Shown here one piece after another: positions 10,131 through 64,000 of a DNA stretch of 64,000 nucleotides. The notes beneath the pieces were generated by a model that was not told where the DNA came from, made no database searches, and saw nothing but the letters and a program-made list of their open reading frames with translations. A program made the translations under genes and the position numbers. Source of the stretch: Tetradesmus obliquus (Eukaryota; Chlorophyta; Chlorophyceae; Sphaeropleales; Scenedesmaceae); the NCBI GenBank assembly GCA_030272155.1, contig CP126206.1, forward strand, positions 2,294,001 through 2,358,000. The letters are read 5' to 3'. Position 1 is the stretch's first letter. Each line of letters begins with the position of its first letter.

Positions 10131-10335
10131 GCTGCTACACAACTGGACAACCCAGATCACATCCCGTGCTCTACTGCTGCTGTGTCACTGGCTGCTCTAT
10201 TACTGCTGGCTCCCAATCGCAGCACCCCCCTGCTGCTGCTGCTGCTGCCGGCCCTGGGGTTTGCCAGCACCCTGCTGGTACCCTCCCTGCTGCTGCTGCT
10301 GCTGCTGGGGTTGCTGCTGTCCATAGCCGCCCCAT
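9905..10335 (-). repeat. Three tandem copies of the last coding segment of the R3H gene
   Basis: The end of the R3H reading frame (10200-10335) encodes GGYQQGAGKPQGR, poly-Q, GGAAIGSQQ and a stop. Two diverged copies lie downstream: about 10015-10095 (GAGKSQGQ, poly-Q, GGAANGSQQ) and 9905-9990 (GAGRSQGR, poly-Q, GGAANGTQQH and a stop). They could serve as alternative terminal segments or be decayed 3'-edge duplicates. Confidence 0.7.
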
Positions 10336-13300
10336 TGCTGGTAGCCATACCCCGGGTACATGTAGCCACCATATGCAGCTGCTGCACCATACTGCTGATA
10401 CGCCATGGCAGCAGCAGCAGCAGGGTCCCAGCCTGCTTGCTGACCAGCTCCATAGCCATACCCTTGAGCAGCATACATGGCAGCGGCATTCGGATCACCA
10501 TAGCCGCCATACTGCTGCTGCTGCTGCATCATGCCAGGCTGGCCTGCTGCCGGGTACTGCTGCTGCTGCTGCGGGTAGCCGCCGCTGCTGCTGCTGCTAT
10601 TGCCGAAATTGCCGCTGCCTGCCCTGCCCATTCCTGCAGGGGGAGGGGGAGGAGGTTTCCCTGCAGACTTGCCAGAGCCACTACGGGCAAAGTTGCCGCC
10701 ATTAGCTGCATTGCCGCTATCCTGCTGCTGCTGGTAGCGTCCCTGCTGCTGCTGCTGCTGGCGGAAGTTGCTGCTGCTGGGGCTCTGCCTGCTGCTGTTG
10801 CCGGCTGCCTGCGGCTGACCATACTGCTGCTGCTGCTGCTGCTGCTGCATGCCTGCGTTGCCTTGTAGTGAGGGAAACTGATCACAAAAGATAGGGCAGG
10901 GGCAGCAACAGCAGCAAGGTCATCAGCGAGAGGCAGCAACAGCAGCAAGGTCATCAGCGAGAGGCAGTTGCATCTCTCACCTACACGACGAGGGCAGTCA
11001 GGGCACTCACCATGTGCTACCTATGCATGGCTCTGCAGCTGCTGCTACCGCACAAAGCACACCATTTGCACACCATTGCAAGCAGGAGGGGCGCCTCAAA
11101 CAACTGGTGCTGCCATTGGCAGAATATGTACTGATAGCTGCAGCATGCTGCAGCTATAAAACCAGCACATGCAGGCATCTGCAGCAGAACGCGCTGCAGC
11201 CTGCCAAGTGCACAGGACAGCATGTGCATTGAGCCAGCCGCAAGTCTGCATATGAGAACGGCCTAGCGTCTTCATTACTGCTGCCTCTGCGCTGTATTTG
11301 CACCGTTGTGCTGCTGCTGCCACTGCAGCTGCTCACCTCAGATCCATATGTGGGCACGACGTACATGCCGCCCGGCTGCTGCTGCTGCTGGCCAGCTCCA
11401 TAGCCCGGGTCAAAGCGCTGCTGGTACCTGCAGCAGCAGCAGCAGCAGCAGGGGCAGAATGCAAAATGCAACTGTCAGCAGGGCGCGGTGGCACTAGCGC
11501 GACTGCAGCAGCTGTGTCTTAAGCCACACTACTCAGCTACTAACACGGCGCTGCTGCTGCTGCTGTCCATGGGCCCACTTAGCTGCTGATCAGTTGGTTT
11601 GCCCCAGCAACACATCTGTTGCAGGCAAGCTAAGCGCGATACTTGTGAAGTTGCAATATCGGCACCAGCACCAACCCACCTGCCCAGCCCCCGCCAGTGA
11701 TCAAGGCACGTGCAGACCAAACATCCATCGAGAATCATCATTGCACATCACTGCAAAACATTGCAAGTCGACAGCAGTGCCAACCCACCTGTCCACACCC
11801 CGCCTGTAATCAGGGTCCTGCACATCCCGCTGCTTATCCTGGTACACTGAAACCATTGCAAACCATTGCATATAATTGCAAACCAAACGAGCAGCAGCCC
11901 ACCTGTCCACGCCCCGCCTGTACACTAAAACCATTGCAAGTTGCAGCAAATTATTGCAAAATCATATCAAACCAGCAGCAGCCCACCTGTCCACGCCCCG
12001 CCTGTAATCAGGGTCCTGCACATCACGCTGCTTGTCCTTGTACACTGCCTTGGGACCACCAGCCCCCTGCCCCCCACGCTGCTGCTGCTGCTGCTGCTGG
12101 CCCCTGCCACTACCGCTGCCAGCCGCCGGCACAACAGCAGCAGCAGCAGCAGCAGCAGCAGGTTCCGGCCCGACTGTGCCAGCGCCGCTGCTGCCGCCCC
12201 CGCCCCTGCCCATGCCCCGGCCAGGGTTTACGAGGTTAAAACCCCGGTCCCCCACTGACGGCGGTACTGCAGCCATGTACCCTGACCCTGCACTGGCGCC
12301 AGCGCCTGCGCTGCCTGGGCGGGCTGCGAGGTTGCTGCTGCTGCCGTTTGCAGCTGACTTATGCAGGCTGCCGCTGCTGCCGTGTGCGTGGGAGAGGTTG
12401 GGCTGCTTGCCGAACAGCTTCTCACGTGCTTCATGGTAATCTGCCTCGCGTTCCTGCAGGTCAACAGGGCATGCACGGCACTGGTGTTTACAAACATGTT
12501 GTTGGAGATGTTGGGCTACTTGCCGCACAGCTTTTCAAGTGTCTCGTGGTAGTCTGCCTCGCGCTCCTGCAGGTGTACAGAACACATATGGCAGCGGTTT
12601 TAGGGTTTGGGGTTGGGTGGTTTACAGTGTATATGGAGCGAGGTTGGGCTGCTTGCCGAACAGCTTCTCACGTGCTTCATGGTAGTCTGCCTCACGCTCC
12701 TGCAGGTACAGGACGGCAGTGGTTTTAGGGTATGAGGTTCGAGGGCTTACAGTGTCCGTGAGAGAGGTTGGCCTGCTTGCCAAACATCTACAACACACCA
12801 CCGCATCCGACCACAGGAGTGTGTGTGTGTGCCTGCGGCTCCTGCAAGCAAAGACGCAGAAGCAAGTTTAGGCTAGGCACCCAGGAAACCATGCTTCGCC
12901 ACACCACCAGAAAGCAAGGATACGCGCACATTGTGCCGACGTGGCGTGCGTCCCACGCTATTAGCTGCGCTGCGTCCACCAGAGCCTGCTGCGCTTCAAT
13001 CTATACATGACATGGGCTGTTTGGCAGCACTATCTTTGAATGCGATCGATTTCTAAATGACACAGCGCAGCGCAGTAGTTGCAAGAATGATTTGCTAACG
13101 CCACGATCATCAGCGAGCAGTCCTGCAAGCTGACGCCCACACAGTGCAGCAAGGCCAACCAGAAAGTGCAGCCAAGAAAACTGAAAACAAACACATGCGT
13201 GCCGCACCTTGTGGCTCTTGTGCCGGCGCTGCTGCTGCTGCCCGTCGCCCCCCTGCTGCTGCTGCTGTGCTGCTGCTGCAGGCGGCCGCTTGATCAGCGC

Positions 13301-15156: not shown

Positions 15157-16293
15157 TCAGCCCAGCAGCACCGAGTGGTGCAGCATGTAGGAGTCGAAAT
15201 CAAAGCCAGCCGCCGCCCACAGCCCGCTCAGTGTGCCGATCACCTCGCGCCGCAGCCGCAGCGGGCGGCCCCAGTTGTGTGTCGTCCAGTCCTCGCCGTG
15301 CTGGTCCCTGCAGCACAACGACAGCATCAGTAGAAGCAGCAGCATTAGCTGGTGCAAAGAACGAGTGAGCTTGGGTCGCAGGGGTGCAGCGGGCGGCCCC
15401 AGTTGTGTGTGGTCCAGTCTCTACCGCGTGATCCCTGCAGGGGCAAGAGACAAATTTGCACACTTGATTGCTGAGTATTAAAGAGGTAGGGAACACAGCG
15501 GACAGCCCCAGTTGTGGTGCACAGAGTGCGGCGGAAATGTCACAAGCAAACAGGCTACATCTGCAAGCAAGCGTCGTGACCAGCCACACACCAACACACC
15601 TGTAAGGGCTCTGGCACTGCGTGCTCCTGCTAGGCCGCTCAGCCATGCAGCGGCTGCCACAGCTTACCATCAGCCGAATGCAACAACCAACACCCAAAAC
15701 TGCACAATACACAATATGTCCAGCATACTGCACAACACCCGCTCACCTGTAGGGGCTCTGGCATTGTGTGCTCCTGCTGAGCCGCTCAGCCATATGGCAT
15801 GAAGCGGCTGCCACATCGCACTGTCAGGCCAGTGCAGCAACCAAAACTCATTGCATCACGCCACGCCGGAGATTTTAAAACCTGGTGTTTGTCCCAAGCC
15901 TGATAGAATACATTACTGTAATGCCCACTTCAGTCAAATGCGTACATGAACAATATTAACCGTTTGTAAACAACACAAACCCACCTGTAGGGGCTCTGGC
16001 ATTGTGTGCTCCTGCTAGGCCGCTCAGCCATGCAGCGGCTGCTGATACAACCCATCAGCCCCAAGCTACACTCCTCACACAACAGCGGCACACGTTACCT
16101 GCATCTCAACAAAATGCACTCAAACACACACCTGTAGGGGCTCTGGCATTGTGTGCTGCGGCTCGGCCGCTCAGCCATGAAGCGGCTGCTGCGCAGCAGC
16201 AGCAGCCCCGCCGCGCCGCCGCCCTGCGCCACCAGCAGCGCCGCTGCGCCTGACGAAATGGAAGCAGGGCACCCTGGCGTTGCACACAGCAAC
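15157..16293 (-). other. C-terminal UBR domain exons of the ligase
   Basis: Exon 16132-16293 continues CLVTGR from the previous exon into LLCATPGC, then SGAAALLVAQGGGAAGLLLL and a CQSPYR end. Exon 15157-15307 gives DQHGEDWTTHNWGRPLRLRR, then GTLSGLW and a stop at 15157. The family counterpart is a CLLCG box, a G-x-G-x-F-L strand and a P-Y-L-D-x-H-G-E motif with a following R-G-x-P-L-x-L, which these match in order. Confidence 0.85.
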
Positions 16294-23734: not shown

Positions 23735-26700
23735 TTGTGCAGCTGCATCAGGTATCTCCAGATCCAGATAACCTATCTCCTGTCTGCTGCTATTGCTGGG
23801 TCCTGCATTGCGTGCAGCACCTGCCCCTGCTGTTGCTGCTGCCGGCTCGTCCTCGCTGCTGCTGCTGCCGCCGTCATCGTCTGTCAACATTATGTCGGCG
23901 GCTTGCAGGAATGCTGTCTGTTGTGCGCGCAGCTTTGCAAGCGCAGCTGCCTGCGGCACACAAATCAGACAACATGGATGTGACGCTAGATGGACGATGC
24001 ATAGAAGTGATGATTTCTGGGCCACGAATGGCACTTGGGCTGCATGGAAGTATTTTCCGCCTGATGCTGCCAACTGCTTGGCACGCCTGCTGCAGCATGA
24101 CTAAAAGAGCATCGGGTTGACCACGCATGTGTGTGAGGTGCGGGTTGGGCACATACAACCAGGATAGTGTGCCAACGGGCATTGCATTCACAGAGACACC
24201 ACCATACATCCATGCACCTGTCTGGCCCTTGCTTGCTCTTTCCTGTCATCCTGAACCTCAACATGTACAGAAAGTTGCAGCAGGGAAGGGCTTGCTGTAG
24301 GCCCAGTCAATCAGGCATTGCAAGCGACTCTTTCCCTGCCGCTCGCACACACAACAATTTCATAAAAATGGCTGTTTAGCGCACATGTCGCGCTCTGGCT
24401 TGCTCTCTCCTGTCATCCCGAACCTCAACATGCACACCCTGGCCAGCAGCAGCAGCCTCCTCAGGTCTCAACACCCCCTGAACCCTGCCCAACAAAACAA
24501 TAACAAACCCCCACAAGCGCACCTGTCTGGCGCTGCCTTGCTCCTTCCTGTCGTCCTGAACCTCAGATCGAGGTCTTAGCATGGTCTGCAGATCCCACAA
24601 TACATTTGTTAAAACACCCAGCCACGCACCTGTCGCGCTCTGGCTTGCTCTCTCCTGTCATCCCGAACCTCAACATGCACACCCTGGCCAGCAGCAGCAG
24701 CCTGCTCAGGTCTCAGCAGCCCCTGAACCCTGCCCAAAAGCCATGATTCGATACTCCAAAACGCACATATCGTGCTCTGGCCTGCTCCTTGCTGTCACCC
24801 AGAATACTACATAACTGCACTCTTTCAATTTGAAAGCATTGTACGCCCCAGAGTGCAGTCCCACAAAACCTCGCCTGCCTACCTGTCTAGCCCTCGCTTG
24901 TTCCTTCCTGTCGTCCTGAACCTCAACGTGCACACCCTGGCCAGCAGCAGCAGCCTGCTCAGGTCTCAGCAGACCCTGAACCCTGCCCAAAACCTCCTGA
25001 GCCAGCGGCAGCAGCGCTTTTGCACACTGCACCACATCGTCACTAAGGACAGCGCTGTTACCAGCAGCAGCAGCAGCAGCAGCAGGGGGTGGCGGCAGGT
25101 CTGCTGCGCCTCGCCTGCTGGCAGGGGCACTGCTGTAAGGTGAGGGTGCTGCTGTGCTGCCACGTGACAGCAGCAGCAGCGTAGGAACTAGTCCTGGCAG
25201 CTGCCCCTGCCCACTGCGGCTGCTGCTGCTGTTGCTGGCCGCTCTCACTGCTGCTGCTGATGATGTGTGGGTGTCACCCGAGGCTTGGCTGGTGCCGGCA
25301 GGTGTCACTAGTGACGCTCCTGCTGGTGTCACTAGTGACGCCAGCCCTGGCCCCTGGTACTCCCAACTTCTCACTCCACTGGCACTGAGAACTTCCTCCA
25401 GAACTTCACACTCCTCTCTGCTGAGAATTCCTGCAGCCTCTCCCTTGCTACCAAACGCAAATGCACCCGCACTGCTGCTGCTGCTGCCACTGCCCGCTGC
25501 TGTGTCACTCGTCCTGCCGAGTGACGCCACACGCCCCTGATCTAACCGCCGCCTCACACTATGTAATCCGAGGCTCAGTAAGTTCAGGGATGACAGCACC
25601 ATATCTTCAGTGACAGGACTTCCTGAAGTTGGCAGTGAACTTCTCCTTCGCCTCCTGCCACTGGACAGCCGCCGCAGCAGCTGCTGCGCTGCTGCTGCTG
25701 CTGCTGCTGCCGTACCACCTGCTGCTGCTGGATCCATACCATCTGCTGCTGCTGCCGGCTGATCCTGCTGCTGCTGCTGCTGTTGTGACCAGCCAAGTGC
25801 AGCACCAGTCATCGCCTCCGCCTGCCAGGTCGCTGCAGCCGCTAAACCCCACGGCTCACCATCTGCTGCACTTGCCAGCACATACCGCACCAGTTTCAGC
25901 ACCCAGGGATTAGCCGGCAGCGCTTCTAGCGGTGCAAGTAGCGGTGGCAGAGCAGCTGCCGGCGGCTGCAGCTGCCAGGCTGGCTGATAGTCTGCCAGGT
26001 CAGATGCACGTGCTAGGGCGCGCTGCAGGGCTGGTCGGCTGTAGTGCAGGAAGTGGGGGTCCCATGTCTTCCAGTGCTCGCGTCTGCACAGCAGGAATTA
26101 AGATATGTTTGTTCTTAGTGTTGTGAATATCTTTCACACTAAGCAGCGCGGGCCAGGGCTCGCTGCAGCGCTGGCCGGCTGTAGTGAAGAAAGTGAGGGT
26201 CCCATGTCTTCGAGTGCTCCCGCCTGCATGGCAGTGATGAGTGCAGCAATCGAGCGCCATCCAGATAGGCGCTCAGTGATCAAATCCTAGGATGCACACG
26301 CCACATGACAACAACACAATTACGCTGCAGATTAAACCACCTCGAGTTGATCAAGCAGATGCAGCAAGCCGCTCACTTGAGGCAGTAGTAGCCAGCAGCT
26401 CCCAGCTTGGGCTGCCTGAACACTGCCAGCTGCAACATACCCATTCAACAGAGCATGCACTAAAGTCAAGTTGGAACCACTCAAACAATGAGACTCGATT
26501 ACTGGGGCCGCTCACTTGAGGCAGTAGTAGCCAGCAGCTCCCAGCTTGGGCTGCCTGAACACTGCCAGCTGCAACATACCCATTCAACAGAGCTACCACA
26601 AAAGTCAAGTTGAAACCACTCAAACAATGAGACTCGATTACTGGGGCCGCTCACTTGAGGCAGTAGTATCCTGCTGCCCCCAGCTTGGGCTGCCTGAACA

Positions 26701-26799: not shown

Positions 26800-27453
26800 G
26801 CAGCAGACAACCGTTCAAACTTGAAATCCACCAAAATTAGGGCGCAGCACAGCTGCACAACATCTACAAGGCAGCTGCCTACAGGCGCAAACTAGTGCTT
26901 GAGCTCCCTGTGTCTGTAAGTTTGCAGGCAGCTTCCGAAAGCGCAACAATAAGCAGAAGGCTCTTGGCTCTTGCCAGGACCACAGTGTAACTATCGTCTC
27001 TCAAGAAGACGTGCCAACCCACACACCTGCAGGTCAGCGGGCAGCTGCTCCACCAGCTGCGTGTAGCTTTACAAGCAGCACACACAAGAACAAATGAAGC
27101 AACAGCAGCAGCAAAAAAGAACAACACGCAGCGCACCTGCAGGTCAGCGGGCAGTTGCTCCACCAGCTGCGTGTAGCTCCAGTCACCTACCGCCAGCCAG
27201 TAAAACATGCAAACGGCAACTGCTGAATGGCTTACCAGTACAGCGGATGCACTGTGCGCAGACAAACAGCATCAACACATGCTGTCTGGTGGAAGCAACA
27301 GCAGCAGAAAAACTGGCAGCAGCAGCAGCAGCAGCAATGCCAACCCACCCACCTGCAGGTCTGCAGGCAGCTGCTCCACCAGCTGTGTGTAGCTCCAGTC
27401 GCCAACCGCCAGCCAGTGCAACAGCAGCAACCTGCAGCAGCAGCAGCAGCGGC

Positions 27454-32065: not shown

Positions 32066-33767
32066 CCTGTGAACCAATGCGTCCAGCGTCTGCGAGCAGT
32101 GGGGCGCCAGCAGCAGCACCACAGGCGATAGGCAACAGGACGCAGCAGCAGCAGCAGCAGCAGCGGTTTCGCAAGCAGGCGCAGCAGCATTGACGGACAT
32201 GCTCACACCCAAACCTCACTCATTGGTGAGCTCAAGAGGAATGGAGGACTTATCAATGTTAACGCATTCTTGCAGCCTGTACACGCTGTGCACCTCGCTC
32301 ATGGTCAGTGTCAGCACCACTTCCAATTCGCCTCCTGCCTTGACTTAGTCAGCGTCACCAACTTTGCGCAAACTGAGGTACATAGACCATGACTTGCACA
32401 GCCCAAAGTTTCACGCTGCAATGGCAAACCCACCTCGCTCATGGTGGTGAATGTCAGCACCACCTCCAGGTTGCCTGAAGCCTTGACTTGGTCAGTAGGC
32501 TGCGCCATGTCATCCACCAACCATTACCCACTGCCCACCAGCCAAACAACACAAACACAACTACGAATCCCACAACGGGCAGACCTAGGCTGCACGGCTG
32601 TACCTACAACAGGCACTTTGCAGAACAAACAGCAGTTGTTCCCAAGCCCACCTCGCTCATGGTAAGTGTCAGCACAACCTCCAGGTTGCCTGAAGCCTTG
32701 ACTTGGTCAGTGGGCTGCGCCATGTCATCCACCAACCATTACCCACTGCCCACCAGCCAAACAACACAAACACAACTACGAATCCCACAACGGGCAGACC
32801 TAGGCTGCACCTACAACAGGCACTTTGCAGAACAAACAGCAGTTGTTCCCAAGCCCACCTCGCTCATGGTAAGTGTCAGCACAACCTCCAGGTTGCCTGA
32901 AGCCTTGACTTGGTCAGTAGGCTGCGCCATGTCACCCACCAACCATAATCCACTGCCCACCAGCCAAACAACACAAACACAACTACGAATCCCACAACGG
33001 GCAGACCTAGGCTGCACGGCTGTACCTACAACAGGCACTTTGCAGAACAAACAGCAGTTGTTCCCAAGCCCACCTCGCTCATGGTAAGTGTCAGCACAAC
33101 CTCCAGGTTGCCTGAAGCCTTGACTTGGTCAGTGGGCTGCGCCATGTCATCCACCAACCATTACCCACTGCCCACCAGCCAAACAACACAAACACAACTA
33201 CGAATCCCACAACGGGCAGACCTAGGCTGCACGGCTGTACCTACAACAGGCACTTTGCAGAACAAACAGCAGTTGTTCCCAAGCCCACCTCGCTCATGGT
33301 AAGTGTCAGCACAACCTCCAGGTTGCCTGAAGCCTTGACTTGGTCAGTGGGCTGCGCCATGTCACCAGTGATGTCAGCACGAATGACACACACAAAGGCA
33401 CGGGTTGCACAGCCAGAGGCCCATGGCTGCTGGACTGTGCTTGAATACACACTTTGCTTGATCACATGCATGGTGTACCATGGGCGCCCACCTCGCTCAT
33501 GGTCAGTGTCAGCACAACCTCCAGGTTGCCTGAAGCCTTGACTTGGTCAGTGGGCTGCTCAAAGAGCAATCTGTGCATGAAATGACAGAACCAAAACCTT
33601 GAAACTCACGGCCGTAACAACCCAAACACTACACAGTCATAGACCCACCTCGCTCATGGTCAGTGTCAGCACAACTTCCAGGTTGCCTGAGGCCTTCACT
33701 TGGTCAGTGGGCTGCGCCATGTCACCCAGCACCAGCCGGCACTGAGGCAGCAGGCCCTGCAGCAGCA

Positions 33768-33799
<32 letters not shown>

Positions 33800-33941
33800 G
33801 GCAGCAGCAGCAGCGGCAGCAGCAGCAGCAGCAGCAGCAGCGGCAGCGGATTCAGTATAAAGACGACTGGAACTGGACCGGTACTAAGCTGCGCCATGTC
33901 ACCCACCACCAGCCGGCACTGAGGCAGCAGGCCCTGCAGCG

Positions 33942-33975
<34 letters not shown>

Positions 33976-34673
33976 CAGCAGCAGCAGCAGCAAGCATGAA
34001 ACGGAATGAGTACAAAAACCACTAGTACTGGACCGGTGCTAAGCTGCGCCATGTCAATAACCACCACCAGCCGGCTATGAGGCAGCAGGCCCTGCAGCGG
34101 CAGCAGCAGCAGCAGCATCAAGCATGAAGGCGCTTGAGTACGACAGCAACAGACAGTACAGGAACAACAATGGGCTGCGCCATGTCACCCACCACCAGAC
34201 GACTCGGCGGCAGCAGGCCCTGCAGCAGCAAAGTGTGAGCGGAGCGTGCCGAATGAGTGCCAGCGCAGTCAACAGCTTCAGCAGGTGCTGCTGGTACAGC
34301 TGCGGCTGCGGCTGCGCTTACAAAGAGGCTGGCAGCAGCATTCCAGCCAGATTTGGCCACCAAGCAGAGCTGCGCGACTGCATCTCGTTCGTGAGCGGCA
34401 GCAGCTGCTGCTGAGACAGCTGAGGCTGCGACAGCAGCTGCAGCATATTTCAACATGCTTCAAACCATCGCCATAACCATATGTTACTGACACGGATGCA
34501 CCTTCTGACTTCAAACTGACTTCAAACTGCGCAGCAAAAAAACAGCTTCGCACCCACCTGGATCTCACGCATCAGCGGCAGCAGCTGCTGTTGGAACAAC
34601 TGCGGCTGCGACAGCAGCTGCAGTGCTGCGGGCCCGTGGTGCAGCACCGTGGAGGTGTCACACATCACACGCC

Positions 34674-34704
<31 letters not shown>

Positions 34705-36339
34705 ACACCAGCAGCAGCAGCAGCGGGGGGCGGGGGTCAATTAGGGATAAGCACATCATCTCCGGTCAGCTGCCACGCACCTGTACGCATTGATCCTGTT
34801 CAGGAACCGGTGCCTGTAGCCAGCCGCTAAACCCATCAGGCCCGCCACAGCAGCACACCGTGATAAGCAGTCAGTCACACCAAGATCCACCATGACACAA
34901 CCAGCACGCGACACTATGTGGAAAACAGGTTTTAACACGCACCTGTACGCGTTGATCCTGTTGAGAATCCTGTGCCGGTAGCCAGCCGCTAAGCCCATCA
35001 GCCCCGCAGCAGCAGCAGAAGCAGCAAACTCTGACCAGCCCAGAACCCAACAGTAACATAGAGAGCACCATCACCACCAACAGCATGTAACGCTGTCTGA
35101 GATGCAATAGACCGTGTACAATCTGCCACGCACCTGTAGGCGTTGATCCTGTTCAGAAACCGGTGCCTGTAGCCAGCCGCTAAGCCCATCAGCCCCGCAG
35201 CAGCAGCAGCAGCGCTGGGCGACAGCCCGTGGTGGTGCGGCGTCATGTGCCTGGACACATCTGTTGTGAGGCTGGCAGCAGTGCTGAGGAGGGTTTGCAG
35301 CAGGTCCTGCCGCACCATCAGCCGCATCGTGGTCTGCATAGGCAGCAGCAGCAGCAGCAGCACCAGAAGAGGAATAGCTTGCCATCAAAAGAAGTTAGAA
35401 CGCTGTAAGCTTATGAACGCCTTTTGCAAGCAAGTTTGCAACTAGGGAGGCATGTGCCGCCTGACATCAGCAGCCAGGCTGGCCGCAGTGCTGAGGAGGG
35501 TCTGCGGCAGGCCCTGGCGCACCATCAGGCGCATCGTTGTCTGCAGAGCAAATGAAGGCGGTGGCAGTAGCGCCATCATTGAAATGCAAGATCAACAGGG
35601 TGTGGCACACATCAGCAGCATCGTGGTCTGCAGCGGTTGCGGTGGTGCAGACAGCGCGTTAGCAACAGCATGCTCCAGCATGACTTTTGAAACACACCAT
35701 CACAGCCTCAAAGGACCCTAGTATTGCTCAGGTCACCCCTTAAGAGTTGAACAGCTGCACAGTCAGCCTATCCAGAACAACAACCAGCGCGTCAGCAACA
35801 CCAGGAACATGCGGAATCAGTTGCAGTTGAAAAAAATGTTGTCATACGCACCTCTTTTTGAGTTGAACAGCTGTACAGTCAGCCTGTCCAGTGCAGCAGA
35901 CAGCTCAACAGCCACATGCCTACACCGACAAACCACTCAACAAACCAAACATGCAGTACTGCTTGGCCCACCTCTTCTGAGTTGAACAGCTGCACAGTCA
36001 GCCTGTCCAGTGCAGCAGACAGCGCATCAGCAACAGCATCCTCCCTGGCTGATCCCACCAGCTGCAGCAGCCAGCTGTAGCAGTCCAGCAGGTGCGTCGT
36101 CGTGTCATATTTGAACTGACTGTCATATAACATTAAAAGTAACAATGTAACAGCCTCTGTCAGCAGCTGCCCCTTGGGGTCATGGCTGCAGGGGGCCATG
36201 CTCGGCAGCAGCAGCAGTAGCCGCCGTAGCAGGCAGCCCTGCTGCTGCTGCACCCTACAAGGGAATGAGGGGTTAGCTGGTGCCAGCTGCCTAGCTAGAG
36301 CCTGTGCTACTGACCACAGCTGAGCCTGCACCATCACAA

Positions 36340-42571: not shown

Positions 42572-44921
42572 TCAGGCCTGGAGCTGCCTCCCGGTGCACT
42601 GCTCAAGCTGCGTGACGTGGTGATGGTGGTGGCGCAGCAGCAGCTGCAGGAGTACATCGGCTTCATGCTCAGCGTACCCCAGGTGAGGAAATTGTATGGT
42701 ATGGTGTGGTGTGGCATGGTGTGGGGTGTTTTGTTATAGTACGCATCACTGACGTACTTGAAGTACGCAGCAGCTGCAGCAAGCTCAGCGCTTGCTCAGT
42801 GTGCCTCATGTATGGTAAATATGTGTGGCGTGCTGGCTGCGTGATGTGGTGCGGTGGTTTCGCAGCAGCAGCTGCGGCAATTCGTTGGAATCATGCTCAG
42901 CATGCCATAGGTTTGCTGTTGTCAAAGTTTGATACCGTTGGCTTACTGCATCCTTGCAACTTTGCCGCCCCATATCTTGCTCACTGTAGTCACTGAAAGC
43001 ACACATCTGTTTTGTTGTGCTTGCTTGACAACCTGGTAACTTCTGCAGGCTGTGCTGTTCACCGACCACGTCAGTTTCCTGCACATCCGCAACTACACCA
43101 ACCCGCCATTCGGCCAAGTCGAGGCCCGCTCAGTAACCCTCATCGCACCAGAAGGGGCACGAATCAACAACGTCCCTCTGGGTGTACTGCGCGCAATGCA
43201 GCCAAAAGCCAACAGCAGCAGCAGCAGCAGCAATGATGCAGCAGCAGCGCAAGGCGACGGCGCCGGCATTGTGACTGTTACTGACAGTTACGTGCTGGGC
43301 GCAAATAACGCCACGCTGCTGCCGCTGCTGCGGCGGCTGGGCGGCCAGGAGACGCAGCAGCCGCTGTTAGTTTTGATTGAAAGTAACGTTACTTTGGCGC
43401 CGGCGGCTTGGGGTAACGCCTGGCCCCAGGGGGGCTTGAAGGTGCAGCGGCCCACAGTGTGGGCTGGCAGCAGCTGGCGGGCAACCTCAATCGACTTTGG
43501 CATGGAAGTGGGGCAGGTGAGTAGAGTTTGACAAGCACAGTTTGACCGGTCATGTTTGACCCACCATGGTTGGCCTACAGTGTGGGCTGGCAGTAGCTGG
43601 CGGGCCACCTCAATTGACTTTGGCATGGAAGTGGGGCAGGTGAGCAGAGCAGCAGTGGTCTTTGACCAGCAGTGTTGACCAGCCGTGTTGATGTTTGACC
43701 AGCCACGTTTGACCAGCCATGGTTGGCCCACAGTGTGGGCTGGCAGCAGCTGGCGGCCGACCTCGACTGATTTTGGCATGGAGGTTGGGCAGGTGAGCAG
43801 AGCAGCAGTGGTCTTTGACCCGCAGGGTTTGACCAGCTGTGTTTGACCAGCGCCTGGTCAGTCGTACACAACCTGAGAAATCGTCATTTGTCTGCTTTAA
43901 ATCCTGCAGATTGCTCAGCGGGCGGCAATCCAACGTGATGCTGGTAAGTGTTGAGGCAGAGAACCTCGCCTTAAACGAATGTGCCTGTTCATTCCCACCA
44001 ACCATCCATGTTTCCTGTCTTGTTTCCAACTGCAGATTGTGCTCAGTGGGCGGTTCTCGAATGTTACGCTGGTCAATGTTGCGGCTGAGAACCTGGCCTA
44101 TGGCAACGCTGCATCGTCCCAAGAGGCCGAAGGGAACAGCATCCTGCTGAGCAACCAGCTGTGGGCCTTCAGCTACAGGCGGTGAGGCTAACAGCTGTTT
44201 TACTGTCTGTTGTCAACTACTAAATTCCATTCAGCAGCATGCTGTTGCCGCAGGATGTGGTGTTTGTTTGGTTGAGCAGTATATCACGCGCATCTGTTGT
44301 GTGTGGTGCGGTGTGGCAAGGCAGGAAACCTGGCCTATGGCAGCACTGCATCTTCCAGGAGGCTGAAGGCAACAGCATGCTGTCCAACCAGCTATGGGCC
44401 TTCAGCTACAGGCGGTGAGCAGCAGTAAATAGTATCGCACCATTGTTTGTGTCATTTAGCTGCTAAGAGTAGGGTCCGTCGTCCCTAAAACCTAGTGCGA
44501 TGTTTACTTGCATGTCATACATCCATGGACATTCGTCCATGTCCACGGTCAGTGTGGATACATGAAAATATATCGGACATCAGATGTCGCGATGTCCCAT
44601 GGGTGTCGAATATTGGATGTCAATGACATTGTTTTACATCTACTATACATTGAGAGTACATCGCGAGCATCAGGGTCACTTTCCGCCTGAAACACAACAG
44701 TATCCGGCTTGTTGATTGTGCCAGTACAGTTGCAGGCACTATAGGCCATGTCGGCTCTCATCTTGCACTGTAGTTGCAACTACATACAATGGTATGCTAG
44801 GTTGCAGTGTTACCGTTGTTTGGTTCCAGTTCTCTATGACCACAAGTCTGACCCGCGTGTGGTGCTGTGAATATGGTGCGGCCGTGCCCTCCACATACAA
44901 GTGTCCACAACCGTATACATG

Positions 44922-49700: not shown

Positions 49701-52700
49701 GATGCCAGACATTCACACGACTTGCTATGCAGTGCATTGTCGCAGTCTGACAGCACACCTTGCCCTCTCAAACCGCTGCTGCTGCTGCCGCTGCTGCCAT
49801 CTGCTCTTGCAGATGCCCCTGCAACCGTCTCGCTATGCGGCTGTCATTTTCCAGGACCAACATGAGATGCTTTGCCGCCGTCATCAGCACACATGTGACT
49901 CAAACGCTGCTGCTGCTGCTGCTGCTGCCGCTGCCGCTGCTGCTGCTGCTGCCGTCTGCTGTTGCAGATGCCCCTGCCACAGTCTCTCTCTGCAGCAGGG
50001 CTGCACGGCTGTCACTTTCCAGCACCAACCTCTCAGCCAAACCACCAGCAGCAGCAGCAGGGAGGCTAAACCGAAGCAGCCTCACTCAGCAGCAGCAGCA
50101 GCAGCAGCTGCAGCTGCATGAGGTCGTTGGCAGCGGCACATTCGGTGTTGTGTATCGGGCAACATGGCGGGGCATCCCAGCAGCTGTGAAAGTGCTGCAG
50201 CTGCCAGCTGGCGGCATCGACGCTTTTGAGGCTCTGCAGCAGCAGCAGCAGAACAGCAAGCTGTCAAACAGCCGTGCAGGCCCCAATGCAGCAGCAGCAG
50301 CAGCAGCAGCAGGGTGTAGGGGTTATGAGGGTTTAGGGGGTGCCAGGGAGCGGTTAGCTGCTGACCGGCTCAGCAGCAGGCGGGAGCAGATGGCGGTGAT
50401 GGAGACTGCTTTAGGATCAAGCCTGAGCCATCCGAACATTGTGCAGGTGATTTGGCGGCTGTGTTTGGTGTGTTGGTTTGGGATTGCGTGTGTGATGTGC
50501 TAAATGTCACCATGTTGTCGTACATATGTATCTGGCGGTTTGGGAAATGCCCCAAGCCAATCATGTGCAGCCGGAGCAGAAGGCTGTGATAAGGGTAGAG
50601 GGTGTGGAGCCCAGGGGCGGCGCCCCTGGCCACACACACCCTTTTAGCCTTCACTTACCCAGGAGCTGCAGAGCTGCCTGGGTAGTCAGTCACTCACTCA
50701 CTCACTCAGGCTGTGATGGAGACTGCTGTGGGGTCCAGCCTGAGCCACCCCAACATAGTGCAGGTGAGTAAGCTACTGTGTTTGGTGCTGTCGTCGGCAG
50801 GTTTGGCATGGCCTGGCGGAAATCCAACATTATGCGGCCTGCGTTTGCATTTTTTAAATTGCTGTGTGCTATACCTGTAGGTTACCCCTGTGTTCAAACT
50901 AATCGCAATCTCTGTGCTTTCTCAATGATCCACTGCAGGTCTACACCTATGTCCTGCGCCCCCTGTCAGCAGCTGGCGCTGCTGCCAGCTTCAACACGCG
51001 CTCAAACACAGAAGGCGGACGCCCCAACAACAGCAGCAGCAGCGGCACACCCCCAGCAGCAGCAGCAGCAGCAGCAGCAGCGTCAGGGAGCTGCAAGGGG
51101 CCTCGCAGTGGCGGCTCTGCTGCTGCTGCTGCTGCTGCTGCTCAGCAGCAGGTGGTGGGCTATGAGCTGCAGCTTGTCATGGAGTACTGTCCCCTGGTGA
51201 GCCGGGGCGATTGTTACATGATCTGTTATTTTATGCGTCACTAACTGCCGTGGTGTGACAAGGGTTCTGCATGCATGCTGAGCTCGTAAGATCGTACCCT
51301 GCAACAAATCTGGCAGAGTATGTCATGTTCATATCACCACTTTGTTTGAGTTTCATGCTTTTCTACCTTGCTGTGCCGATTGCTCTGCTGCTGCTGTTGC
51401 TTTTGCCGCCGCAGGGCTCGCTCCGCTCCGCAATTGACAGCTGCCTGCTTGATGACCGGCTCACCAGCCGCCCTAACTACAGCACCGTGCTAAGCCTGGG
51501 GCTGGGCGTGGCGCAAGCGATGGCCCACCTGCATGCTGAGGGTGTCATCCACGGGGGTGAGCGGTGAATAGTTTGTTTACTTTTTGACGGCTTTTGCATG
51601 ACAAAGGGCTCACCAACCGCCCCAACTACAGCACGGTGCTGAGTCTTGGGCTGGGCGTGGCGCGGGCGATGGCACACCTGCATGCTGAAGGCGTCATCCA
51701 CGGAGGTGATTACCTGCAAAGTGTCTGCTTTAGTCATGTTTGTTGTGTTGCCTCTGTCCTGAACTGTCCTGGACTTGCCGAGTCTTGGGCTGGGCGTGGC
51801 ACGGGCAATGGCACACCTGCATGCTGAGGGCGTCATCCACGGAGGTGTGTGTCTTCAACAGGGTTGCATGCATGCTCCTTTAAAGGAAAGCAGCACCACG
51901 TAGTGTATTCAATTGCAGCAGTAAGCACTGTTGCATGGCTGCGTCTGCCACGGGCAGGTCATCAACCACATAAGCATTGCTGCTCCTACGTGTGGATCTG
52001 CTAGCAGACAACATGATCAAACTTCACCAATTGCCTCATACTTGGCTGCTGTCAATGCTGCTGCTGCTGCTGCTGCAGATCTCAAGGCCGCCAATGTGCT
52101 GCTGAAGATGGAGCTGGCAGGCAGCCCTGGCGCCGGCACTGCTGCTGCTGGCACTGTCGCTGCTGCTGCCCCCAATGCTGGTGGTGCAGCAACTTGCAGC
52201 CTTTCGGGTGGCAGCGACAAGCAGCCGCAGCAGCAGCAGCAGCAGCAGGCGGCGCTGGTTGCCAAGGTGGCAGACTTTGGGCTGGCCACGCGGCTGGATG
52301 ACACAGAGACACACGTGTCAGGGGTGCACCGGGTGAGTTTGGTGCCATCAGTTTGGGACCGAGGTGTGTTCAGGGCAGGCCTGCGGGAGGGTGTTGAACA
52401 CTTTCCATGTGACTTGGGGCTGGCCGCACGGCTGGATGACACCGAGACGCACGTGTCAGGAGTTCATCGAGTGAGAGGGTCGGCTTGTTTACTTGGTACA
52501 TCTTACGTGTTGGTTCCCTTGGGTTTGTCGTCCAGCTGAATCAGCCAGCCAGATCAAGTGCACTGAGTTTGTTGGTATGCGTGCTAGTGCTGCTTGCGGC
52601 CGCTGCTGCTGCTGCTGCTGCTGCTGCAATGACAGCCTCAACAAGAGCAAATGCGAATGCAATAGGGCATGTCGCGAGGATTTGCGTGCTACACTGTTGC

Positions 52701-54867
52701 TCTTATCTTTGATTATCAGCACCTCACACTGCTGCTGCAACCACCCTACTGCAGGGCACGCTGACGCACATGGCACCCGAGCTGCTGCTGCAGGGGTGGG
52801 CCAGCAAGCACATTGCTGATCATCTCTTCTGTGTTGTCGTCCGCCTCTCACATTGCTGCTGCTGCTGCTTGCTGTTGTTTGCAGGGCACGCTCACACACA
52901 TGGCTCCCGAGCTGCTGCTGCAGGGGTGGGCCAGCAAGCACATTGCTGATCATCTCTTCTGTGTTGTCGTCCGCCTCTCACATTGCTGCTGCTGCTGCTT
53001 GCTGTTGTTTGCAGGGCACGCTCACACACATGGCTCCCGAGCTGCTGCTACAAGGGCGGGCCAGCAAGGCGAGCGACGTGTATGCATTCGGCATCCTGCT
53101 GTGGGAGCTGGCTACGGGGCGGCGGGCATTTTCGGGTGAGATTTTGTTGATGATGAAACATGATGAAACCGGCGTTCAATTAGCATCAAACATGATACAA
53201 CATGTGGAAACCGGCACGCATTCAGCATCAAAGCGGTGACGTGTACGCATTCGGCATCTTGCTGTGAGAGCTGGCTACTGGGCGGCAGGCTTTTTCAGGT
53301 GACTCCCCATCCTCAGACTGCAAGGCTTTGTGGTTTTTTGCTGATTTCAACGTGTGTTTGAATTACGCGCATGACCGCATGTGTGGGTTCAAGCAAAATG
53401 TACACATTACGTACGCATTCGGCATCCTGCTGTGGGAGCTGGCTGGGTTCAAGTAAAATGTATACATTACGTACGCATTTGGCATCCTGCTGTGGGAGCT
53501 GGCTACGATCTCAGGTGAGTTTGCAAGGGTGTCAGGTTTTTTGCTGCGTGTACGGTTGTTATAGTGGTGGTGTGCATGTTGTTGCTGCATGTTTGCTTGT
53601 GACGTGCATGTCTATACCGAACGCGTGTGTTACTGTTGGCATCTGGTTTTCAGCAACGCGTATGCTGCATCCATTCGTCCAAGTTGGCCCATGCATATCT
53701 GAGGGGGTATGTGAGGGTGTCCAGCACGACTCCAAAGTGTCCAATTCGGCAGCAGCAGCATTAGGAGCTTGCATGCTCGCTACTTGCGGTAAAAATATGC
53801 ATTTCTTTTCATGCTGTTCATGTTATGTTTCATGCCAATGTCTTTGAGCATCGTTGTCTTTGACCGCCGCTGCTGCCATGACGCTGACTACGCTGCTGCA
53901 GATGTCCCAAAAGCGATGCTCGGAGCAGCAGTGGTGCGCGATGCGGCACGGCCGGACTGGCCGGAAGGCAGCAGCTGCATGCAGGCAGCAGCGTTTGCAG
54001 CGGCAGCAGCGGCGGCTGCAGGCCTGCCTGGTGGTGCTGACTTGGAGCATCCACCAATGCACTATAGGCAGCTCACAGAGGCTTGTTGGGCGCAGAACCC
54101 TGCTGACAGGTGCGTGTATCCTGCGTTTAGGGTTTGTTTCTTACGCTCTCTATGTTTAGTTGCCAGGTGGTGCTGACTTGGTGCACCCCCCAATGCACTA
54201 TAGGCAGCTGACAGAGGCTTGTTGGGCGCAGAACCCTGCTGACAGGTGAGGCTTTGATACAGTCAGCACTACAGGTGAGGGTTTGAGACTGTCAGCACTA
54301 CACGCAGCTGACAGAGGCTTGCTGGGAAACCCTGCTGGCAGGTGCGTAGAAGTGTGTGCGGCACTACATCTGCCCCTTGCACAGCCTGGGACTCAGAGAA
54401 ACTACTGAAATGTGTGTATGTATGTTTCTAACCCGAAGGCCCGCTTTTGGTGAGGTGTGTGAGGCATTGGAGCTGCTGCTGGCTCAGAGACACAGTCTGC
54501 AGCGATGCCTGAAAACCCAACACCTGAAACCCATGCATGTCATATTTGCAGGCCCGCCTTTGGTGAGGTGTGTGAGGCGCTGGAGCTGCTGCTGGCTCAG
54601 GAACCCATTCTGCATGGATGTCTACAGATGTCTGAAAACCCGTCCTCTGAAACACGTGCTTGTGATTCTTGAAATCGCAGGCCCGGCTTTGGTGAGGTGT
54701 GTGGGGCGCTGGAGTTGCTGCTTGCACAAGAGCAGGAGCGCTCAGAGCTGCTGGCGAAACTGCTGACTCAGCAGCAGCAGCAGCAGCTGCAGCAGCAGCA
54801 GCAGCAGCAGTTGCCGGAGGCACCACCAGCATCAGCAGCAGCAGCAGCAGATCCAAAGGAGCCTGTC

Positions 54868-54905
<38 letters not shown>

Positions 54906-55341
54906 AGCAGCTTGCAGCAGCAGCAACCCCACTGAGGCTGCTTCAGCTGCAGCTCCAGCAACAACAGCGCCCGGCACAGCTGCTGCATCTCCGTTTCTTG
55001 CCGCATCTCAACAAACTGCAACAGCACCTGCATCCGTGCTTCCACCTGCGACAGCACCCCCAGCAGCAGCAGCAGCGTCACCACCAGTACCACCACCAGC
55101 AGCAGCAGCTGCTGCAGTTCCTGAGCCCATGCAAGCTGCCCCTCTCAGCCTGTTTCACAGTGTGGGAAGTGTGGTGGGTGATGGGCAGCTGCCTCCGCTG
55201 CGAAGGGCATCCTATGGCAGCAGCAGCAGCAGCAGCAGCAGTAGCAATCTGCCTGCTGCTGCTGCTGCTGTGCTGTCTTGGAGTGCTGGGGGTGTGAGTC
55301 TCTCAGCAGGGAGTAATGCAAGCCAACCAGCTTCTACTGTT

Positions 55342-55377
<36 letters not shown>

Positions 55378-55863
55378 GTAGGAGATGCAACAGCAGCTGA
55401 CAGGCGCTGGGCTGGCATCAGTTCTGTTTCTGCTGGCGAGATTGAGCCAATCCAGGCGGCAGCAGCAGCAGCGGCAGCAGCAAGGCCTGCTTTTGACAGT
55501 GCGGGCAGCAATACCCAGCAAGGCACACCAAGGCAGCAGCAGCAGCCGCTGCTGGAGCGGCAGCTGGATCTGAGAAAGAAAAGTGCTGCAGCGGTTGCTG
55601 CTGTGCTGCACGGCAATCTGGGTGTCAGCGCAACTGCTGCTGCTGGCTGTGCAAACGCTTCAACTTTTGCAACACAGCAGCAACAGCAGCAGGCCGTGGG
55701 CGCTGGCAGCAGCAGCGCAGCAGCGGCAGCAGCGGCAGCGGCAGCAGCAGCAGCAGCAGCAGCAGCAAATGCTGTGCCAAGTCGCACAGCCCCTCCCGCA
55801 CTGGCAAGCCCCTTTGACATGCTGAAAGATGCTTCCTGGGTGGGCTCCAGCTCACGTGTGTGA
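40824..55863 (+). CDS. Receptor-like TKL/Raf-type protein kinase
   Basis: Eighteen exons sum to 2149 codons plus stop: 40824-41103, 41480-41596, 41777-41866, 42576-42682, 43049-43516, 44036-44181, 44977-45054, 45397-45481, 46114-47123, 47484-47866, 48183-49223, 49968-50446, 50939-51196, 51415-51556, 52079-52332, 53015-53135, 53902-54109 and 54681-55863. The ATG at 40824 starts a signal peptide (MQSCGLAAVLACLICIGIAS). The ectodomain to about residue 940 has repeating Leu/Val strands and sequons (LLLANATL, NVTLAP, ILLANVTLLL), suggesting a beta-helix-like fold. A membrane helix (about 942-964) and a Ser/Ala/Gln-rich juxtamembrane region precede the kinase (about 1312-1780). A low-complexity tail follows. 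It is probably a plasma membrane receptor with cytosolic Ser/Thr kinase activity; the ligand is unknown. Confidence 0.9.
42064..42252 (+). repeat. 27-bp minisatellite
   Basis: About seven units of TAGTATGT, GTGTGTGC, ATGCACCATCA in an intron of the kinase gene, one unit shortened. It lies between two partial copies (41935-41990 and 42265-42310) of the donor edge of exon 41777-41866. Frames through it on both strands are repeat translations, not genes. Confidence 0.95.
43575..43800 (+). repeat. Two donor-side copies of kinase exon 43049-43516
   Basis: Segments at 43577-43639 and 43728-43794 repeat the exon end encoding TVWAGSSWRATSIDFGMEVG plus the GTGAG donor. The second has a TGA in the coding frame. 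Both follow the genuine donor at 43516, so they are intronic. Confidence 0.85.
44925..44976 (+). repeat. (CTG)n tract fused to a splice acceptor
   Basis: A pure run of 17 CTG triplets ending CTGCAG, directly followed by exon 44977-45054 of the kinase gene. It serves as the whole 3' intron end. Confidence 0.95.
45545..46065 (+). repeat. Edge copies in the kinase intron 45482-46113
   Basis: Copies of the donor edge of exon 45397-45481 (ETLQYT[IV]IQ plus GTGGGG or GTTGG) occur near 45560-45591, 45665-45692 and 45770-45798, about 105 bp apart. An acceptor-side copy of the next exon (TACACGCGC, CCTGGTGATTACAT) lies at 45973-46035. Confidence 0.8.
48183..49223 (+). other. Transmembrane and juxtamembrane exon of the kinase
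   Basis: The exon opens with a Ser-rich stalk. Then comes the helix LTAGVILAVLLPLLAAAAAL and the stop-transfer FVWRRRHQL. The remaining 300 or so residues are Ser, Ala and Gln rich and could be a phosphorylation-rich linker. A partial copy of its 3' end lies at 49388-49542 with its own donor. Confidence 0.85.
50593..50708 (-). mobile_element. Dispersed element, copy B
   Basis: This is the reverse-oriented homologue of the element at 5207-5341. It shares GGGTAGAGGGTGTGG, a GGCGGCGCCCC core, CCCAGGAGCTGCAGAGCTGC and a (CACT)n end. It sits in the kinase intron after exon 49968-50446 and directly precedes a copy of that exon's end (50712-50764). Confidence 0.6.
51605..51846 (+). repeat. Two donor-side copies of the kinase catalytic-loop exon
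   Basis: Copies at 51608-51706 and 51780-51845 repeat the end of exon 51415-51556 (LGVARAMAHLHAEGVIHG). The true exon is the only one whose acceptor and phase fit both neighbours, though the donors after HGG are nearly equivalent. Confidence 0.85.
52756..53060 (+). repeat. 130-bp perfect tandem repeat at the activation segment
   Basis: The unit carrying the acceptor and GTLTHMAPELLLQG is repeated from 52798 and 52928, with a diverged copy upstream at 52756. Identity over the two full units looks complete, including the intronic CTG-rich part. Only the last copy continues into RASKASDVYAFGILLWEL, so earlier copies act as alternative 3' splice sites. Confidence 0.9.
53235..53520 (+). repeat. 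Donor-side copies of kinase exon 53015-53135
   Basis: Three copies near 53235-53300, 53412-53445 and 53472-53515 repeat the YAFGILLWELAT segment. One has TGA replacing the Trp codon of LLWEL, so it is non-functional in frame. Confidence 0.8.
54155..54605 (+). repeat. Edge copies in the last kinase intron
   Basis: Donor-side copies of exon 53902-54109 (MHYRQLTEACWAQNPADR) lie at 54163-54246 and partly near 54298-54342. Acceptor-side copies of the last exon (RPAFGEVCEALELLLAQ) lie at 54439-54490 and 54550-54600. The intron thus holds copies of both flanking exons in the expected order. Confidence 0.85.
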
Positions 55864-62127: not shown

Positions 62128-62384
62128 GCTGCTATTGTCTTCGCAGGTGCTGAGCGAGCTGCGCTCGCTGCAGCGGCTGCACCTGTGCCTGAGCCACTAC
62201 GACAGCTCGCACTGCTTCGACATGAGTGGGCTGACTAGTGTTACAGAGCTGGAGGCAAGCGTGAACATGGAGCTGGAAGAAGGTGAGGGGCCGCTACTGA
62301 TGCTGCTGCTGCTGCTGCTGCTGCTGCTAACCAGCCCCACTGAGATTGAGGGCAGCTGGGATCTGGACATGGCTGCAGCTGATG

Positions 62385-62416
<32 letters not shown>

Positions 62417-63246: not shown

Positions 63247-63280
<34 letters not shown>

Positions 63281-63358
63281 CCAACTCTGCCGCGTCGCTG
63301 GTTGTGGACGACTGCCGCCTTGACTAGAAGGGGGCTGCCAGGGCACGTGTGATCAGTA

Positions 63359-63392
<34 letters not shown>

Positions 63393-63470
63393 CCAACTCT
63401 GCCGCGTCGCTGGTTGTGGACGACTGCCGCCTTGACTAGAAGGGGGCTGCCAGGGCACGTGTGATCAGTA

Positions 63471-63504
<34 letters not shown>

Positions 63505-64000
63505 CCAACTCTGCCGCGTCGCTGGTTGTGGACGACTGCCGCCTTGACTAGAAGGGGGCTGCCAGGGCACGTGTGATCAGTACCTGCTGCTGCTGCTGCT
63601 GCTGCTGTGCTGCTGCATTCGCTGTTTGTGGACGACTGCCGCTTTGGCTGGGAGACGGCTGACAGCACGCGCGTCAACAGGGACCTGGCACAGCTGGCCG
63701 CGACACATCTGTGACTAACCAAATAGCTTTTCAGCAATTAACTGCAGGTTCTGCTGTAAAACCTGATTTGATTCGTATTCAACTGACAGCTTGTGCTGCT
63801 GCCCCTGCTGCTGTGCCAAACAATGTTGCAGTCGCTGTTTGTGGACGACTGCCGCTTTGGCTGGGAGATGGCTGACAGGGCGCGCGTGAACAGGGACCTG
63901 GCACAGCTGGCCACGACACACAAGCAGCTTTCACATACGCTGTTGGTGCAGGTTCGACTGGGCAACCAGTTCTTACAACACCCTGCTGATGGTGCTGCCA
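59844..64000 (+). CDS. F-box-like protein with leucine-rich repeats (3' end off the window)
   Basis: Five exons fit in phase: 59844-60471, 61091-61818, 62147-62282, 62463-62548 and 63832 to the edge. The ATG at 59844 gives MVDQASQAAPAAKAEAAAAD and then SLSESVWPIILRHITFHINQ, RTACSLLASCKALRSAF, which resembles an F-box. Poly-Ala runs and an acidic, Asp/Glu/Ala-rich stretch (about residues 255-310) follow. Leucine-rich repeats follow: VAQLTSLSLKW, LAQLTNLRKLTLYSY, VTQLRQLSFLSF, LRSLQRLHLCL and LRRLTVFNIL. F-box proteins recruit substrates to SCF ubiquitin ligases through such repeats. The F-box call is weaker than the repeats. The last exon may end at a GT near 63950 or continue past the edge. 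Confidence 0.75.
60472..61090 (+). repeat. Edge copies in the first F-box gene intron
   Basis: Donor-side copies of the first exon (ATPAALPALLQG plus GTGAG or GTTGG) occur at about 60515-60565 and 60615-60660. An acceptor-side copy of the next exon edge (CTGCTGCGGGTGATGCAG) lies near 60953-60972, ahead of the true acceptor at 61090. Confidence 0.75.
62081..62133 (+). repeat. (CTG)n tract before a splice acceptor of the F-box gene
   Basis: A nearly pure CTG run followed within 15 bp by TTGTCTTCGCAG and exon 62147-62282. Confidence 0.95.
62590..63025 (+). repeat. Donor-side copies of the last LRR exon in the window
   Basis: Copies of exon 62463-62548's end (VFNI[LI]SVEPLRALTQLQ plus donor) occur near 62620-62674, 62755-62782, 62848-62900 and 62985-63028, about 110-135 bp apart. 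Decay increases with distance from the true exon. Confidence 0.8.
63245..63700 (+). repeat. 112-bp tandem array before the last exon
   Basis: Three near-identical units start their non-triplet part at 63278, 63390 and 63502. Each has (CTG)n followed by a copy of the next exon's 5' edge (LVVDDCRLD then a stop). A fourth, less altered copy at 63605-63715 reads SLFVDDCRFGWETADSTRVN to a stop and lacks an AG acceptor. The true acceptor is at 63831. Confidence 0.85.

Follow-up and report, generated by a model that had tools for sequence, protein, structure and literature searches.

Tandemly duplicated, mutually exclusive exons are whole exons, with both splice sites, repeated beside the exon, and break repair by filler DNA or templated insertion would leave a short segment present twice, with unrelated sequence in between; we know of no case of such repair that is tied to splice junctions. 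Here we analyze a 64-kb stretch of the Tetradesmus obliquus genome, referred to as the window (contig CP126206.1, G000:C16:2294001-2358000), in which exon edges carrying their splice signal are copied into the adjoining intron, among them the edges of a protein-kinase gene at 50–56 kb. The parent category of such copies is known. Internal gene duplication, or tandem genomic duplication, has been described as giving rise to introns (Gao and Lynch 2009 and Hellsten et al. 2011, as cited in PMC3443670). In two further reports, the human polyubiquitin gene UBC consists of tandem exonic units with dual-specific splice sites at the unit ends (PMC10809524), and introners are intron-associated repeats present many times within one genome (PMC9860276).

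The locus shares features with each of these systems and departs from all of them. As in the process outlined in PMC3443670, the duplications are short, genic and local, would be rendered harmless by splicing, and duplicate splice sites along with the exon; direct local duplication of exonic DNA was found both by self-comparison of the window and by BLAST of the kinase exons. There, however, a new intron arises from a duplicated exon piece via AGGT, whereas here existing introns are lengthened by edge copies, and the copied segments often halt at the junction. We observed no new intron between two exonic AGGT copies; the copies are edges inside existing introns, each with its own donor or acceptor. 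Tandem exonic units bearing splice sites at their ends are also a feature of UBC, but those (PMC10809524) are whole coding units bounded by AGGT and spliced in variable number, whereas the units here are half-exons without a signal peak at the outer end. Numerous intron-associated repeats per genome resemble the introners of PMC9860276, but no common mobile sequence was found here, and in the kinase genes the match of each copy is to its own exon; no near-identical insertions into unrelated genes were seen among the window pairs or for the one unit searched genome-wide. Exon sequence is repeated beside the exon both in mutually exclusive exons and here, but here only one edge is repeated, and complete exon copies with acceptor and donor were not found, judging from the outer ends and, by eye, from the kinase phases. 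Filler-DNA repair likewise would leave two segment copies parted by unrelated sequence, but here the ends often fall at splice junctions. The original prediction, made from the sequence of the window, held that the phenomenon has no standard name, which is near the truth apart from the parent category; no description of its scale, of half-exon ladders or of junction-limited similarity was found in the open-access literature searched by title and abstract.

Exon-edge copies in kinase genes

The genome comprises 104,662,953 bases on 17 contigs. The window itself has a G+C content of 56% and abounds in CTG/CAG runs, which were filtered out before repeats were counted and before the junction-anchored scan and exon BLAST described below. 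Self-comparison identified 149 near pairs (direct repeats 40–2000 nucleotides (nt) apart) within the window, making up 26% of its bases and falling into 53 families, 50 of which begin past 11.7 kb. Over the window and 20 other regions, an identical search of the reversed sequence gave a single match, and there was one near inverted pair in total. The spacing between pair members peaks at 100–140 nt in the window and the other regions alike.

Exons B–H of the kinase gene, on the plus strand at 49968-55860, share a single frame. If every copy is skipped, as the original prediction requires for the intact protein in each of its four genes, they encode a complete kinase domain that runs from VVGSGTFGVVYRA through the whole C-lobe. 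The exons, placed by the joined frame, and their copies are as follows:

49813..49841, + strand, copy of the exon B 5' edge, 155 nt upstream, with AG (anchored scan)
49968..50446, + strand, kinase exon B, N-lobe, VVGSGTFGVVYRA ... HPNIVQ, donor GTGATT
50709..50763, + strand, copy of the exon B 3' edge with GT, 317 nt downstream (anchored scan)
50939..51196, + strand, kinase exon C, copies found at neither edge (anchored scan)
51415..51556, + strand, kinase exon D, GSLRSAI ... GVIHG
51607..51705, + strand, copy 1 of the exon D 3' edge with GT, 88% identity, mismatches per codon position 0,2,10
51776..51844, + strand, copy 2 of the exon D 3' edge with GT (anchored scan)
52079..52332, + strand, kinase exon E, DLKAANVLL ... 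THVSGVHR
52411..52470, + strand, copy of the exon E 3' edge with GT (anchored scan)
52755..52808, + strand, copy 1 of the exon F 5' edge (GTLTHMAPELLLQG) with AG (anchored scan)
52885..52938, + strand, copy 2 of the exon F 5' edge, recombinant, its left half matching the real edge and its right half copy 1 (by eye)
53015..53135, + strand, kinase exon F
53238..53298, + strand, copy of the exon F 3' edge with GT, containing TGA
53411..53516, + strand, further copies of the exon F 3' part, rearranged, the second terminating in CAG/GTGAGT
53902..54109, + strand, kinase exon G
54161..54245, + strand, copy 1 of the exon G 3' edge with GT (anchored scan)
54295..54341, + strand, copy 2 of the exon G 3' edge with GT (self-comparison and exon BLAST)
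54439..54486, + strand, copy 1 of the exon H 5' edge with AG (anchored scan)
54552..54602, + strand, copy 2 of the exon H 5' edge with AG (anchored scan)
54681..55860, + strand, kinase exon H, end of the domain and repeat-rich tail, 3' end putative

BLAST of the seven kinase exons against the locus gave 15 matches outside the query exon, all of them direct. Eleven come to within 2 nt of an exon edge, where 0.8 would be expected, including one at the putative end of exon H, and they lie upstream for 5' edges (4/4) and downstream for 3' edges (7/7). Of the four that miss an edge, one is a fragment of the exon B copy, one is the exon E copy, which does reach the junction in the junction-anchored scan, and two are rearranged copies of exon F that stop short. 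The anchored scan, which did not require GT or AG, detected 11 copies at 8 of the 13 kinase junctions in the window. Stretches from a real junction to its farthest copy take up about 1.86 of the 3.25 kb of kinase intron (arithmetic from the coordinates), in agreement with the proposal that the copies lengthen introns.

The protein-kinase family is large in this genome, with 149 Pkinase matches on many contigs among the candidates scored. Kinase loci on other contigs carry copies of their own edges, at times at identical junctions: the HPNIVQ donor edge is copied in L042, L043 and L046, and the GTLTHMAPE acceptor edge in L042 and L045. We scanned 24 kinase junctions, chosen by hand and placed by motif, in five genes (13 in the window, four in L044, three each in L043 and L042, and one in L046); the scan did not extend to any of L041, or to additional junctions at which L042, L045 and L046 visibly carry copies. 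Copies are present at 14 of the 24 junctions, 19 copies in total, and every one (19/19) shows GT or AG at the corresponding position, a condition that the scan did not impose. Donor-type copies always lie downstream (12/12) and acceptor-type copies upstream (7/7). The copied segments span 26–99 nt from the exon interior to the junction and recur in direct orientation 113–390 nt away in the adjoining intron. They diverge by 0–21% from the real edge, each with its own flanks, on several contigs. A match of L041 to the GTLTHM edge was dropped as a copy, since it is possibly the real exon. Together with the 149 window pairs, these copies bear out the claim that exon edges with their splice signal are copied locally, directly and recurrently, in genes on both strands.

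The HPNIVQ array of L042 (C4) is homologous to that of L043 (C14), and so are the intron units within it (77–79% identity), whereas the remaining introns of the two genes show no mutual match at E 0.001 except in repeat-rich stretches. The array predates the gene duplication or has passed between both genes. The idea of frozen copies was rejected, as the L042 and L043 copies differ at about 12 of 57 positions (by eye), which is comparable to their intron units.

The order of the copies set out in the original prediction is upheld as an observation but points to no particular mechanism. A duplication across a donor leaves an extra edge downstream in the intron, and one across an acceptor leaves it upstream, so that the order is the geometric result of any junction-spanning duplication and gives no evidence for a special process. 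Taking about 232 nt as the intron that remains and about 138 nt as the unit, we calculate that geometry alone would put roughly three quarters of the tandem duplications that are tolerated across a junction. Junction enrichment alone is therefore no evidence of targeting, and an abrupt end of similarity is the better clue.

Edge families across the window and the genome

Donor motifs at repeat ends were also counted independently of gene models, and repeats tend to terminate at donor motifs on the expected side. Among 71 short pairs at 10–37 kb, the minus-strand donor motif stands at the left end of both copies in 47, compared with 10 at the right end, one each for the plus-strand motif at the left and right ends, and 8 (minus) and 12 (plus) in mid-repeat. 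Among 32 short pairs at 41–63 kb, the plus-strand motif stands at the right end in 11, the controls being 2 (left, minus), 1 (left, plus), 0 (right, minus) and 3 and 3 in mid-repeat; in all these counts, pairs within one family are not independent. The edge families outside the kinase gene include:

15588..16191, - strand, 3'-edge family, junctions 16131, 15984, 15746, 15599
24210..24992, - strand, 3'-edge family VHVEVQDDRKEQARARQ, junctions 24882, 24629, 24522, 24384, 24217
27012..27417, - strand, 3'-edge family TQLVEQLPADLQ, junctions 27352, 27136, 27026
32291..33728, - strand, real exon edge ...NLEVVLTLTMSE, donor 33648, with at least six downstream copies (edge-family lists)
33708..34230, - strand, upstream 5'-edge copies (GLLPQCRLVVGDMAQ) with AG, of the exon whose 3' edge is NLEVVLTLTMSE
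34770..36035, - strand, edge families 34776/34938/35129, 35269/35476 and 35736/35849/35971
43449..43843, + strand, 3'-edge family SIDFGMEVGQ, junctions 43516, 43639, 43792

The downstream copies of the NLEVVLTLTMSE edge lie at 33491, 33288, 33073, 32858, 32651 and 32293 on the minus strand, and four of them form a tandem array of units of about 215 nt (32651-33288). Some non-kinase families, for example that at 16630-17722, may contain whole-exon units. Ten long open reading frames (ORFs) examined gave no Pfam match above cut-off. The window also holds minisatellites at 42063-42251 (27-nt units) and 5342-5570 (19-nt units).

Outside the window, 20 evenly placed 10-kb regions of contigs 1–4 contain 87 near pairs. 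Eight regions have none and a single one, L032, holds 35 of the 87, and the window is therefore a dense patch. Among 54 short pairs from these regions, 21 terminate at a donor motif on the correct side, whereas the motif is wrongly sided in 6 and lies in mid-repeat in 6; L032 contributes 12 of the 21. In this sampled survey, too, the copies tend to relate to splice junctions, as the original prediction would have it, and the feature is patchy across the genome and extends past the window.

Part of the 87 pairs belongs to other repeat types. L025:4889-8305 (C1:5.0 Mb) carries perfect or near-perfect direct duplications of 1.4 kb and 0.6 kb, which are on a different scale. At L035:7850-8399 (C3:2.5 Mb), units of 114 nt are repeated in tandem, and a single codon position accounts for 25 of their 30 mismatches; this is probably a coding repeat, in frame and constrained.

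Exon and intron parts of the copies

In three arrays, the 215-nt one, the 128-nt one of L042 and a 130-nt one, the whole unit, exon part and intron part together, is repeated head to tail. Mismatches amount to 1.5% in the exon part and 0.8% in the intron part of the 215-nt array (32651-33288), and to 4.7% and 7.0% in the 128-nt array. The exon F array matches itself over 189 nt with six mismatches, all within the exon-edge parts. Its copy at 52885, which by eye matches the real edge in the left half and the copy at 52755 in the right half, is a product of unequal exchange. Secondary growth by unequal exchange is demonstrated at 52755/52885/53015 and in the 215-nt array, and to this extent the mechanism put forward in the original prediction stands.

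Twelve other families were compared as well. Their exon parts show 6–15% mismatch and align without gaps in ten families. In seven of the twelve (those at 24, 16, 27, 22 and 35 kb and those of kinase exons D and G), the intron part shows 52–62% mismatch, which amounts to no similarity. Partial intron similarity is seen in the 17-kb, 62-kb, kinase H and L043 families (40–48% mismatch pooled, with single pairs down to 19%), and in the 43-kb family the intron part aligns well (16% mismatch). The copies at 27136 and 27026 differ at 1 in 42 positions of the exon part and have unrelated introns; likewise, exon D copies 51705 and 51844 (51607-51844) differ at 3 in 64 and are followed by unrelated introns. 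Over 66 pairs, the intron part aligned at z>3 in 35, compared with 13 of 66 random-segment controls, some of the z values stemming from exon homology past the set boundary (15984/15746).

Origin and persistence of the copies

On the sequence evidence, recurrent local duplication tolerated by splicing would be the best reading of these observations, and we hold it with a confidence slightly above even. Copies would be born through local DNA repair or replication error, either as a duplication with unrelated sequence between the copies or as a tandem duplication followed by rapid intron turnover. They would persist because each half-exon has one splice site and no outer partner, so that exon definition picks the real exon. 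Selection would purge duplications within exons, which together with geometry would produce the order rule. Some arrays have since been enlarged by unequal exchange between copies, and introns would thus lengthen as ladders of half-exons.

The outer ends of the copies are consistent with such tolerance. In 48 donor-type copies, AG occurs at each of the outer-end offsets -4 to +1 in at most 4 copies, with a maximum of 7 at +9, where the AG count is the same in the real edges; in 15 acceptor-type copies, GT at the outer end is highest at +8 (4/15). Hence no AG or GT peak at the boundary was found over these 48 and 15 copies, which, like the edge-family lists, were assigned automatically, conditioned on GT/AG and short intron similarity, with some families misassigned. 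Since the copies have a single splice site and no signal peak at the outer end, exon definition would pass over half-exons, and the label of decoy sites given to them earlier is not supported. The spacing between pair members modulo 3 is 45/44/49 in the window and 35/24/22 in the other regions; as the window shows no frame preference, extended exons are apparently not selected for.

Two sets of observations weigh against duplication followed by neutral decay, which accounts for neither of them. One is the abrupt end of similarity, frequent even among copies of 94–100% identity. On the intron side, similarity runs no more than 10 nt past the junction for 15 of the 19 kinase copies and extends farther in 4; a copy in L044 is 100% identical over 36 exon nt and 10 intron nt and unrelated thereafter, and an L046 copy with 97% identity is also among the 15. 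Plain tandem duplication would share the entire unit, so the abrupt end speaks against it, and the junction-limited similarity appears to resemble a pair of short segment copies parted by unrelated sequence, unlike a whole-unit tandem duplication. The other is the codon position of the mismatches. Simulation of a null model, with free drift of the copy and nothing but silent changes in the real edge, gave 43% third-position mismatches. Nine kinase pairs, one per real edge, have 54 of 72 mismatches at the third position (z 5.5), and all eleven window kinase copies have 60 of 78. In the other genes, a fixed ORF rule gave 71/116 in 18 of 84 rows (z 4.0), many of these rows sharing an edge; one row per real edge (9 edges) gave 39/73 (z 1.9), and 14 hand-picked pairs gave 57/103 (z 2.6), with equally clear frames such as 62548/62674 (2,0,0) omitted. 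The mismatches of L032 show no codon periodicity (z -0.3, 17 short pairs). Longest-ORF frames are wrong for some families (27352, 53135), and totals from such frames were left unused.

The third-position bias argues that coding constraint acted on the kinase copies for some of their history; such constraint is uncertain for copies outside the kinase genes. The notion that copies are dead from birth accordingly fails in the kinases and is doubtful in the other genes. Mutation bias was rejected as the cause of the third-position excess, A and T sites being the more mutable ones in long repeats. Gene conversion from the real edge, considered by reasoning alone, fits the similar exon parts but not the silent-site bias. 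Within recurrent local duplication, the bias may tentatively be ascribed to exchange of the copies, over some of their history, with functional edges on other alleles. Plain tandem amplification, on the lines of the original prediction, is unable to explain either this bias or the unrelated intron parts of many units whose exon parts keep 85–100% identity.

The same two sets of observations bear on the alternatives. Recombination between diverged alleles, in a hybrid or a very diverse population, would bring together the left part of an array from one allele and the copy with its following intron from another, which we consider unlikely. It would suit a third-position bias, if exon parts differ mainly at silent sites, as well as introns that are unrelated while the exon parts align, gap-free in most families; amino-acid differences polarized by paralogues (by eye) also fall about equally on real edge and copy. 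However, it requires a silent divergence of about 0.2 between mates (an estimate), or unrelated introns beside identical exons, as in L044. Moreover, the matches listed include no near-identical second kinase locus, identity outside this locus being at most 67% (127 of 270 candidates scored), although an alternate haplotype could have been removed, and the bias is weak in other genes with one row per edge. That some transcripts might use the copies as alternative exon edges or cassette exons is improbable. Third-position bias and intact GT/AG would be expected of used copies, and kinase copies 50709 and 51607 could form in-phase cassettes with a nearby AG, but the remaining kinase copies inspected are out of phase, stops are present in copies 53238, 32293 and 35736, and the duplicated segments would disrupt the kinase domain. 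As a general explanation, cassette-exon use was rejected on the grounds of the window spacing without frame preference and of the lack of a boundary peak at the outer ends.

A process that recognizes splice junctions and copies edges into the adjoining intron, for instance from nascent RNA held by the splicing machinery, likewise seems improbable. Its specific form, in which edges held on nascent RNA would be templated into the intron under transcription, we would rate as quite improbable. In its favor, even the copies of highest similarity have segments that end at the junction or no more than 10 nt from it, and the kinase matches lie in the same gene, on the same strand and in the adjacent intron. 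Against it, acceptor-edge copies sit behind the polymerase and some arrays contain whole introns, and we know of no RNA intermediate with such ends on the acceptor side. A dispersed introner-like element or an ordinary minisatellite is very improbable: short intronic repeats are many and minisatellites do occur, but after filtering no pair longer than 60 nt at a separation of at least 3 kb was found in the window, one kinase unit searched genome-wide retrieved itself and its paralogue (2 candidates scored), and the repeated sequence in kinase genes is the gene's own exon. Dense, short repeats could also mislead an assembler, but an assembly artefact is hardly credible when the kinase copies are diverged by 0–21%, have their own flanks and occur on several contigs, and when copies respect splice sites, for which assemblers have no reason.

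Together, our results show a countable process by which introns grow, with ladders of half-exons left behind, and one that looks recent, as one copy is still 100% identical. Each ladder is a natural experiment on exon definition, that is, on the choice made by splicing between a real junction and its near-perfect copies. If the junction-exact ends hold genome-wide, a mutational process would be tied to splicing, with a bearing on how introns change; and if junction-recognizing copying were true, splicing would feed back on gene structure and build introns from half-exons.

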